A stretch of DNA of 64,000 nucleotides from Acidobacteriaceae bacterium (GTDB lineage: Bacteria; Acidobacteriota; Terriglobia; Terriglobales; Acidobacteriaceae), in assembly GCA_003134815.1 (NCBI GenBank), contig PLCO01000009.1, forward strand, positions 189,010 to 253,009, in the 5' to 3' direction. The notes beneath the pieces are model-generated. The model worked only from the letters and a program-made list of their open reading frames with translations. It ran no database searches and was not told the origin of the DNA. This document shows positions 7,424 to 11,599 of the stretch, piece by piece. A program made the translations under genes and the position numbers. The first letter of the stretch is position 1, and each line of letters opens with the position of its first letter.

Positions 7424-8914
7424 TCACTCTGCATTGTCGATTTGGGCGCGCTGGAGCTTGTCGGAGTAATCCACATAAACGGCTTTCCAGGTGGTGAAGA
7501 AGTCGAGTGCGCCGAGGCCTTCGCGGTGACCGTTGCCTGTGTGCTTGACGCCGCCGAAGGGCAGATGGACCTCCGCGCCGATGGTGGGCGCGTTGATGTA
7601 GGTGATGCCGGCTTCGAGGTCGCGCATGGCGGTGAAGGCGCGGTTCACGTCTCGAGTGTAGAGCGACGTGGAGAGGCCGTAGTCAACGGAGTTGGCGATT
7701 TCGACGGCTTCGTCGAAGGTTGAAAATTCGATGAGCGCGACCACGGGGCCGAATACTTCTTCGCGGGCGATGCGCATGGACGGCGTTACGCCGGCGAAGA
7801 CAGTCGGCTCAAAGAAAGTGCCGTGGGCGTAGGGACCCTCGGTGAGCGCGTGGCCGCCGCAGAGGAGCTGGGCACCTTCCTTGATTGCCAAGTCCACATA
7901 GCGGGCCGATGTTTCGATCTGGGCAGCGTTGACCTGCGGGCCGATTTCGACAGACTCGTCGAGGCCGTTGCCGATTTTGAGTTTCTTGGCGCGGGCGACG
8001 AACTTTTCAGTGAATTCGGCGGCGATTCCCTTGTGGAGAAGGATGCGGCTGGTGGCCGTGCAGCGCTGGCCGGTAGTGCCGAATGCTCCCCATAGCGCGC
8101 CGTCGAGAGCGAGGTCGAGGTTGGCGTCGTTGAGAACGATCTGAGCGTTCTTGCCGCCCATTTCGAGCGAGACCTGCTTGAAGGTGGCGGCTGCGCGCTG
8201 GGCGATGAGCGAGCCGACGGCGCTGGAACCGGTAAAGCTGATGGCGCGGACATCGGGATGCTCGACCAGCGCCGCGCCCGCGGTAGAACCGGTGCCGCAG
8301 ACGATATTGACGACGCCCGGCGGCAGACCGGCATCGACGAGCGCCTGGACGAGGTTATAGGTGGAGAGCGGCGTATCAGTAGCAGGCTTGATGATGCAGG
8401 CGTTGCCGGCGACGAGCGCGGGAAAGAGCTTCCAACTGGGGATGGCCATGGGGAAGTTCCACGGCGTGATGAGGCCGACCACCCCGACCGGCATGCGGAC
8501 GGACATGGCGAACTTGTTCTGAAGCTCCGAGGGAGTGGTGACGCCGAACAGCCGCCGACCCTCACCCGCAACGTAAAACGCCTCATCGATGGCTTCCTGC
8601 ACGTCGCCGCGGGTTTCGGCCAGCACCTTGCCCATTTCGCGGGTCATGTCGCGCGCATATTTTTCCTTGTTTTGGACGAGGTTGTTGCCGGCACGGAGGA
8701 GGATCTCAGCTCGCCTGGGAGCGGGCACGAGCCGCCATGTGGCGAAGGCCTTCTTTGCGGCGGCTACGGCCATGGCCACGTCTTCGGCATGCGAGGAGGG
8801 AAACGCGCCGATGACATCGGAGTGGTCAGCAGGGTTGAGATTGAGGATGGTTTTGCCGCTGACGGCCGGAATCCACTGGCCGCCGATGAGGTTGTGGTAG
8901 GTGGGATAGGTCAT
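7424..8914 (-). CDS. aldehyde dehydrogenase family protein
   Basis: [64 protein letters not shown]. Confidence 0.95.
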
Positions 8915-8919
8915 ATTGG

Positions 8920-8947
8920 CAGTTCTCAGGTCTCAGGTCTCAGTCGA
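8920..8947. repeat. 7-bp tandem array abutting ALDH start codon
   Basis: cagttct|caggtct|caggtct|cagtcga. Confidence 0.8.
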
Positions 8948-9174
8948 CAGCAGGGCGGGGTCGGACGGCGGAACGGGCGGCGCCAGCCTCTTCCTCGACG
9001 GTAACTGAAGCCGACCATCAGCGTACGCCCGCTGAGCCGCTTGAGGCCAGCCGAGGAAGCTTTAGCGGTCTGCCGTTTACCAAAGCGGCACGCCAAACGG
9101 TCGGTACCTCGTTTGTGCCATGGGCCAATTGCCGCGATCAAGGGCAAGTAGCCGTACAATAGCCTTGAGGTTAA

Positions 9175-10251
<1,077 letters not shown>

Positions 10252-10253
10252 GA

Positions 10254-10288
10254 CAGTTGTCAGTAATCAGTTGCCAGTTTTCAGTTGC
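10254..10288. repeat. 7-bp tandem array (CAGNNNN x5) directly after mreB stop
   Basis: cagttgt|cagtaat|cagttgc|cagtttt|cagttgc. Confidence 0.85.
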
Positions 10289-10388
10289 TGGAGCGCTGAC
10301 GGGGCCTCCCGAAAGCCCGTCGCGACTCACGAATCCCAAGAACAGAGCTTGCTCAGGCGAATCAGAAAGCCTGATCTTTCCGCACCCG

Positions 10389-10423
10389 TTACTGACAACT
10401 GAAAACTGACGACTGGGAACTGG
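10389..10423. repeat. 7-bp tandem array (NNACTGR x5), inverted relative to 10254-10288, directly before mreC ATG
   Basis: ttactga|caactga|aaactga|cgactgg|gaactgg. Confidence 0.85.
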
Positions 10424-10426
10424 TTT

Positions 10427-11599
10427 ATGGAATCGCTTTTCGTTCGCTATCGGAACCTGGTGGTGCTGCTGGCACTGCTGACGGTGCAGCTCTTCGGGCT
10501 TGCCCTACAGGTGCGCCGGACTCCCGGCGGCACGAGCATGCTCGACAGCTCGGACCCAAGTGGCGTGCGACTGATCCGGCTTTGGGCTAATGCGCTGATT
10601 TCTCCGCCGGAGCGGCTGGTTCACTCGAGCAAGATCGGAATTTCGGCAACCTGGTCCAACTATATCGACCTCGTTCACGTCCGGCAGCAAAACAAGGATT
10701 TGGAAAGCGCCGTCGACCGGTTGCGGCTGGAGCAAGCCGCACTGCTGGAGGACGCGCGCCAGGGCGAGCGGCTGCAGGCGATTCTCGGCTTCCAACAAAA
10801 ATACATCTATTCCACGATTGCCGCGCAGGTTTACGGTTCGAGCGGCAGCGACCGTTCGCGCGATTTCTTTATCGACAAGGGCAGGCGCGACGGTTTGAAG
10901 CCGGATATGGCCGTAATTACCGCGGCGGGCATTGTAGGCAAAGTGCGGGATGTGTTTCCGCATACCGCGCAGGTGCTGGCCGTGAACGATACCACCAGCG
11001 GCGCAGGCGTGATTCTGGAGACGACGCGCATTCGCGGAGTACTTCGCGGCGATGCATCGGGGCAACTCGAGGTGGTGGGCGTGACTGCCGATCAGCGCAT
11101 TCAGCCGGGAGAGCACGTGCTCACCGCCGGGGGCGACCTGATTTTTCCGCGTGGCCTCCCCGTAGGCGTGGTGAAAAGGGTGGTCCGCGATCCCGATCGC
11201 GACGGCCTGGTTGACATTATTCTTACGCCGGCAGCGCCGCTGGATGGCCTTGACGAGGTGCTTGTGATTACTTCGACCGAGCCGCGCTTCCCGCCACAGG
11301 ACGAACAAGATCTTGCAGCGAGCAAAGCAGATGAAGGCGCAGTTCCACCCGCGATCAAGGATCAGATGAAGGCTTCAGAGATTATGGCGGAGAAGCTGCC
11401 GGGGCTGACGGACCCCAATCTGCCTCCGGATAAACAGCCGCTGAACGACAACAGCAACCCGAATCCCGCGCCGCCACCGCCGCAGCCATTGCATCCCGAC
11501 GAGTTTTCGCCGACCGCAAATGACGATTCAGGGACGACGCCGGAACCTGAGTCTTCGCCGAAGCAAAAACCGCAAATGACGCCGCAGAGGAATCCTTAG
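10427..11599 (+). CDS. mreC: rod shape-determining protein MreC
   Basis: Single TM then coiled coil, DFFIDKGRRDGLKPDMAVITAAGIVGKVRDVFPHTAQVL; follows mreB. Confidence 0.93.
   Translation: MESLFVRYRNLVVLLALLTVQLFGLALQVRRTPGGTSMLDSSDPSGVRLIRLWANALISPPERLVHSSKIGISATWSNYIDLVHVRQQNKDLESAVDRLRLEQAALLEDARQGERLQAILGFQQKYIYSTIAAQVYGSSGSDRSRDFFIDKGRRDGLKPDMAVITAAGIVGKVRDVFPHTAQVLAVNDTTSGAGVILETTRIRGVLRGDASGQLEVVGVTADQRIQPGEHVLTAGGDLIFPRGLPVGVVKRVVRDPDRDGLVDIILTPAAPLDGLDEVLVITSTEPRFPPQDEQDLAASKADEGAVPPAIKDQMKASEIMAEKLPGLTDPNLPPDKQPLNDNSNPNPAPPPPQPLHPDEFSPTANDDSGTTPEPESSPKQKPQMTPQRNP

Follow-up and report, generated by a model that had tools for sequence, protein, structure and literature searches.

We analyzed the spacer between the cell-shape genes mreB and mreC in a window of 64,000 nucleotides from an Acidobacteriaceae bacterium (GCA_003134815.1, contig PLCO01000009.1, positions 189,010 to 253,009). 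The mreB gene (9187-10251, plus strand, 354 aa, with congeneric orthologues mostly 95-98% identical) ends with a TAA codon at 10249-10251, and mreC (10427-11599, plus strand) is followed by mreD, mrdA/PBP2, and rodA. In the 175-nt spacer, two bases (GA, 10252-10253) after the mreB stop are followed by a left arm of five CAGTNNN heptads (CAGTTGT, CAGTAAT, CAGTTGC, CAGTTTT, CAGTTGC; 10254-10288). The right arm (10388-10422) contains five inverted units that read CAGTTCC, CAGTCGT, CAGTTTT, CAGTTGT, CAGTAAC on the minus strand. Between the arms there is a 99-nt non-coding core (10289-10387). The first-pass annotation described two inverted heptad arrays that bound the spacer, and this observation is confirmed, with the small difference that in our register the right array ends 4 nt (GTTT) before the mreC ATG rather than 3 nt.

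Both 13-bp pairings proposed in that annotation exist. The segment 10254-10266 is perfectly complementary to 10389-10401, whereas the alternative register, 10275-10287 with 10396-10408, is also perfect and lies within a 27-nt pairing of 81%. The predicted RNA fold of the spacer has an energy of -70.2 kcal/mol (z = -3.4), and only 1 of 200 shuffled sequences was as good. A search of positions 9000-11000 against the Rfam covariance models returned no match up to E = 1.

The arrays are not a product of chance, and the motif is dispersed in the genome. The triple-unit pattern CAGTNNNCAGTNNNCAGT occurs 93 times in the 4.18-Mb genome as compared to 11 times for the reversed control, and an array pattern of the AGCT type gave 174 hits as compared to 2 for its control. 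A scan of three contigs (776 kb) identified 13 inverted lag-7 array pairs, and none in a third-order Markov control; a stricter inverted-repeat scan (score 18 or more) did not recover the mreBC copy itself. No other copy of the whole spacer or of its core was found in the genome, where only arm fragments match elsewhere. In contrast, some AGCT-type cassettes have whole copies that are 70-77% similar, and at positions 243950-258418 of contig C48 of the genome labelled G000, seven ORF-less cassettes of 67-136 nt lie within 15 kb, some of them 71-77% alike over their whole length. Two copies of an imperfect palindrome of about 118 nt (TACAGCAGAATCCGAG...) without heptads, at positions 167233 and 180874 of the same contig, represent another repeat family. 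Within the window, five CAG heptads (CAGTTCT, CAGGTCT, CAGGTCT, CAGTCGA, CAGCAGG; 8920-8954) lie just upstream of the start of a minus-strand aldehyde dehydrogenase-like ORF (7424-8914), and no inverted partner was found for them.

To compare the same gap in relatives, we searched 60 relatives for MreC and read 30 congeneric loci, including that of the window. Among the 26 loci with both genes, one gap (locus L050) is empty, with only 10 nt (AGGCAGGGAC), and most hold inverted heptad arrays. However, the arrays are written in different unit sequences, here called dialects, including CAGTGAT, CAGGGTT, GGGACTA, CAGTGGA, CAGTCGC, and others, and neither the unit sequence, the array length, nor the core is conserved at mreBC even among congeners. 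The two arms of one species match each other (mean score 15.25) far better than arms taken from different species (9.36; 0 of 10000 permutations), and 18 of 24 spacers score 12 or more. Outside the genus most gaps lack arrays, although two genomes of other families (loci L349 and L356) have inverted arrays in yet other dialects. The mreB-mreC gap at locus L060 holds a 421-nt insert between GGGACTA arrays with a different small ORF (84 aa) that has only a weak DUF5345 match.

In one congeneric species (genome G024, locus L042), the mreB-mreC gap carries a 124-aa ORF between GGGACT arrays. Its product matches the S23 four-helix-bundle family (23S_rRNA_IVP, PF05635; 1.6e-35) and weakly bAvd, and its closest solved structure is 2gsc (XCC0516). 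The S23 family is so far known mainly from inserts in ribosomal RNA genes. No nuclease, recombinase, or polymerase match was found for S23. Thus the same gap is found in three states within one genus: empty, ORF-less, and S23-coding. PF05635 occurs in 30 of the 36 congeneric genomes searched, with up to ten matches each, and the flanks of these genes are inverted heptad arrays inside operons, including sucC-sucD, atpA-atpG, accB-accC, pheS-pheT, and others (gene names assigned from the translated flanks).

We used a score for inverted arms to quantify this association, with flanks wide enough to include 3' arms that overlap the S23 C-terminus. Of 86 congeneric S23 genes with enough flank, 76 have inverted arms of score 13 or more. 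The same holds for 72 of 77 loci from a scan of named genomes (Acidobacteria, Planctomycetes, Bacteroidetes, Firmicutes, Fibrobacter, Desulfobacterota, CPR, and more), although this broad set was drawn from the best 80 hits to an Acidobacteria alignment and is not an unbiased sample of the family. The corresponding values for the two sets are 0.8% and 4.3% in shuffles and 18% and 10% for arms taken from different loci, while 150 other ORFs of 300-600 nt in the genome of the window gave 1.3%. The arrays are mostly of heptads, and self-similarity in the flanks is raised at lags 7 and 14, with a small rise at lag 8. The arrays share a common grammar of AG followed by variable bases, with T and then Y favored at the end, and in the upstream arm AG lies on the S23 strand in 70 loci as compared to 4. 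In addition, long arms are present at 8 of 8 plasmid S23 loci examined, of which seven are cyanobacterial (Calothrix, two Nostoc, Trichormus, Geminocystis, Anabaena, and Pseudanabaena) and one is from Gemmatirosa.

Of 76 evaluable cassettes, 67 start within 80 nt of an upstream stop codon on the same strand (median 3 nt), and 55 lie between two co-directional genes. Empty and filled versions of the same gaps were found. At sucC-sucD, 18 congeners have gaps of -1 to 2 nt, eight have S23 cassettes of 426-938 nt, and four have other inserts. At atpA-atpG, four have 8-9 nt, five have S23 cassettes, one has 30 nt without arrays, and 18 have ORF-less inserts of 68-269 nt, most of them visibly heptad-bounded. 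In filled sucC genes the array often runs into the C-terminal end of the gene and supplies its TAG stop codon (loci L232, L224, L212, and L221). In the comparison of filled and empty gaps, where the arrays appear to run into the host gene end, we saw no clear target-site duplication. ORFs with weak GIY-YIG-like matches occupy the sucC-sucD gap at L229, L237, and L212, in the latter together with S23, but their Pfam scores are below the cut-off and they are not used here as evidence.

The S23 genes are under purifying selection, with a median dN/dS of 0.077 in pairs with unsaturated dS, while 10 of 90 ORFs have an internal stop. On the S23 tree, most recurrent sites form near-clades (17 changes for 13 sites), suggesting old insertions with vertical descent and loss, so that much of the inheritance at these sites may be vertical. 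However, one clade with AGGGAA(C/T) arrays occupies about a dozen different places, and the mreBC S23 of G024 nests among S23s of another site, being 86% identical to one of them (L312). The arm dialect follows the S23 clade across insertion sites, as indicated by a Mantel test that excluded same-site pairs (0 of 1000) and by parsimony with one locus per site, which was below every one of 2000 shuffles in five draws (p < 0.0005). Dialects also change within a site, with both arms changing together.

If pairing in RNA were selected, mismatches between the arms should favor G-U over A-C. No such excess was observed (83:75, 79:88, and 13:14), arguing against selection on RNA pairing. The arms thus look like two DNA copies of one array, which fits unit slippage plus arm-to-arm copying, or recognition at the DNA level, but does not rule out RNA folding as a by-product that makes the insert tolerable.

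Based on these results, our preferred interpretation, held with moderate confidence, is that the mreB-mreC spacer is an ORF-less member of a widespread, little-recognized, IVS-like kind of inserted element found in operon gaps across many phyla, here called the S23/heptad cassette. In such a cassette, two inverted arrays of 7-nt units of the form AGNNN(T)Y surround a core, which is one intact S23 gene in the complete form and roughly 30-150 nt of non-coding DNA in the short form, and the whole is placed flush with the upstream stop and close to the downstream start. The window copy has two such arrays with AG phase, and an S23 gene is present in the same gap of G024. The analysis demonstrates the anatomy of the cassettes, the covariation of their arms, the empty and filled gaps, the association with S23 across phyla, the link between dialect and S23 clade, and the purifying selection on S23. 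By contrast, we only infer that the elements are mobile, that S23 (distantly Avd-like) recognizes the array or its hairpin and promotes movement or maintenance, that ORF-less copies are derivatives, and that the arms stay alike through a DNA-level process in which unit slippage is combined with copying of one arm onto the other, as in quasipalindrome correction. In the mRNA, the arms can fold the insert out of the operon, which may make it tolerable, as in rRNA intervening sequences. Several facts weigh against this view. No transposition event, clear target duplication, or excision product was observed, the window copy has a core that is unique in the genome, without S23 or any detectable S23 remnant (and no convincing remnant was found in ORF-less cores), and some congeners without a detected S23 (e.g. 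genomes G025 and G034) still have ORF-less cassettes. The near-monophyly of most S23s at recurrent sites and the lack of a nuclease, recombinase, or polymerase match for S23 also weigh against it.

Among the alternatives, we consider neutral local expansion unlikely, though it is the strongest competitor. In this scenario, heptad arrays arise in place by replication slippage and become inverted and matched by template switching, no element moves, and S23 genes merely sit in such places. It is consistent with heptads being the commonest long simple repeats in many prokaryotes (as cited in PMC4679880), with the mostly unique cores of ORF-less copies, with the rapid change of dialects at one site (e.g. 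the recurrent site S01), and with arms that behave as DNA identity rather than RNA pairing. However, it does not readily account for the association with one protein family in about 90% of its loci, the dialects that follow the S23 clade across different sites, the fixed AG polarity relative to the S23 strand, or the otherwise empty gaps that hold an intact S23 cassette.

The interpretation given in the first-pass annotation was partly supported, since it offered a mobile heptad-bounded insertion as one of two possibilities. The other possibility, an RNA hairpin that sequesters or exposes the mreC ribosome binding site in alternative registers and sets the MreB:MreC stoichiometry, is not supported, and a conserved RNA hairpin that regulates mreC translation or mRNA processing in the mreBC operon appears unlikely. 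The strong predicted fold, the covariation of the arms, and the fact that most mreBC spacers of congeners fold better than shuffles (z about -2 to -9) speak for it. In contrast, the arms show no excess of G-U-compatible changes, the same architecture occurs in unrelated operons and phyla, and it is missing in L050 and in many outgroups. As the spacer can fold, a side effect on mreC translation is not excluded. Least likely are binding sites for a global regulator or G-quadruplex elements, as heptamer repeats were read in Geobacter, Xanthomonas, and Beggiatoaceae. The unit sequence differs from locus to locus within one genome and one gap, which does not fit a single cognate regulator, and most units here lack the G runs needed for G-quadruplexes, as inferred from the sequences.

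The closest known systems are the intervening sequences (IVS) of bacterial rRNA genes (Leptospira, Coxiella, and CPR rRNA insertions), which share with the cassettes the S23 ORF, inverted ends that form a stem, a scattered distribution, and ORF-less versions at the same sites as ORF-containing ones (PMC11270868). The Coxiella IVS has tandem GACAGAT heptamers beside the S23 start and is cut out by RNase III (PMC4990558). The window copy likewise has inverted ends able to form a stem, but it lies in a protein-operon gap and not inside a 23S or 16S rRNA gene, both of its ends are heptad arrays, and it lacks the S23 ORF present in many, though not all, IVSs; the S23 genes studied here are under purifying selection rather than decaying. 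Tandem heptamers of variable copy number in intergenic DNA were reported as cyanobacterial STRR, as TAACTGA of Beggiatoaceae, and in Bacteroidetes (PMC4679880), as GGGAATC of Xanthomonas, where 70 and 75 cases in two genomes are inverted pairs (PMC4692102), and as Geobacter heptanucleotide elements (PMC2700814). These reports treat the arrays as regulators, G-quadruplexes, or orphan repeats, and we found no link to S23 in them. In the open-access literature searched, which does not include subscription papers and so does not prove novelty, no paper joins heptad arrays and S23 outside rRNA. MITEs and other non-autonomous transposons are also short ORF-less elements with inverted ends and a coding relative, but here the ends are variable heptad arrays instead of fixed terminal inverted repeats, no clear target duplication was identified, and several copies with the same core were not found for the window copy, and only in part for the AGCT-dialect family. 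S23 has distant sequence similarity to Avd proteins of diversity-generating retroelements, although no reverse transcriptase or template repeat was seen in the cassettes that were read.

A broader and more tentative possibility is that S23/heptad cassettes are a bacteria-wide, previously unrecognized class of mobile element, in which S23 recognizes arrays of a matching dialect and moves or maintains the cassette, probably through a hairpin intermediate. In this view, rRNA intervening sequences and many intergenic heptamer repeats (STRR, TAACTGA, GGGAATC) would be members or relics of one class. Two long-standing puzzles, namely why 7-nt repeats abound between bacterial genes and what the widespread, conserved S23 protein does, would become one testable question, with S23 binding to heptad DNA or RNA, dialect specificity, and polymorphic cassettes in closely related strains as its predictions. 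The results also warn against reading intergenic heptamer hairpins as conserved regulators. The cassettes may further explain the S23 genes noted in cas loci (PMC3936711), since two such genes between cas6 and cas4 on cyanobacterial plasmids (loci L363 and L365) lie in heptad cassettes. On a Nostoc plasmid (L361), another S23 cassette lies between the ribonucleotide reductase beta and alpha genes, on the opposite strand to both.
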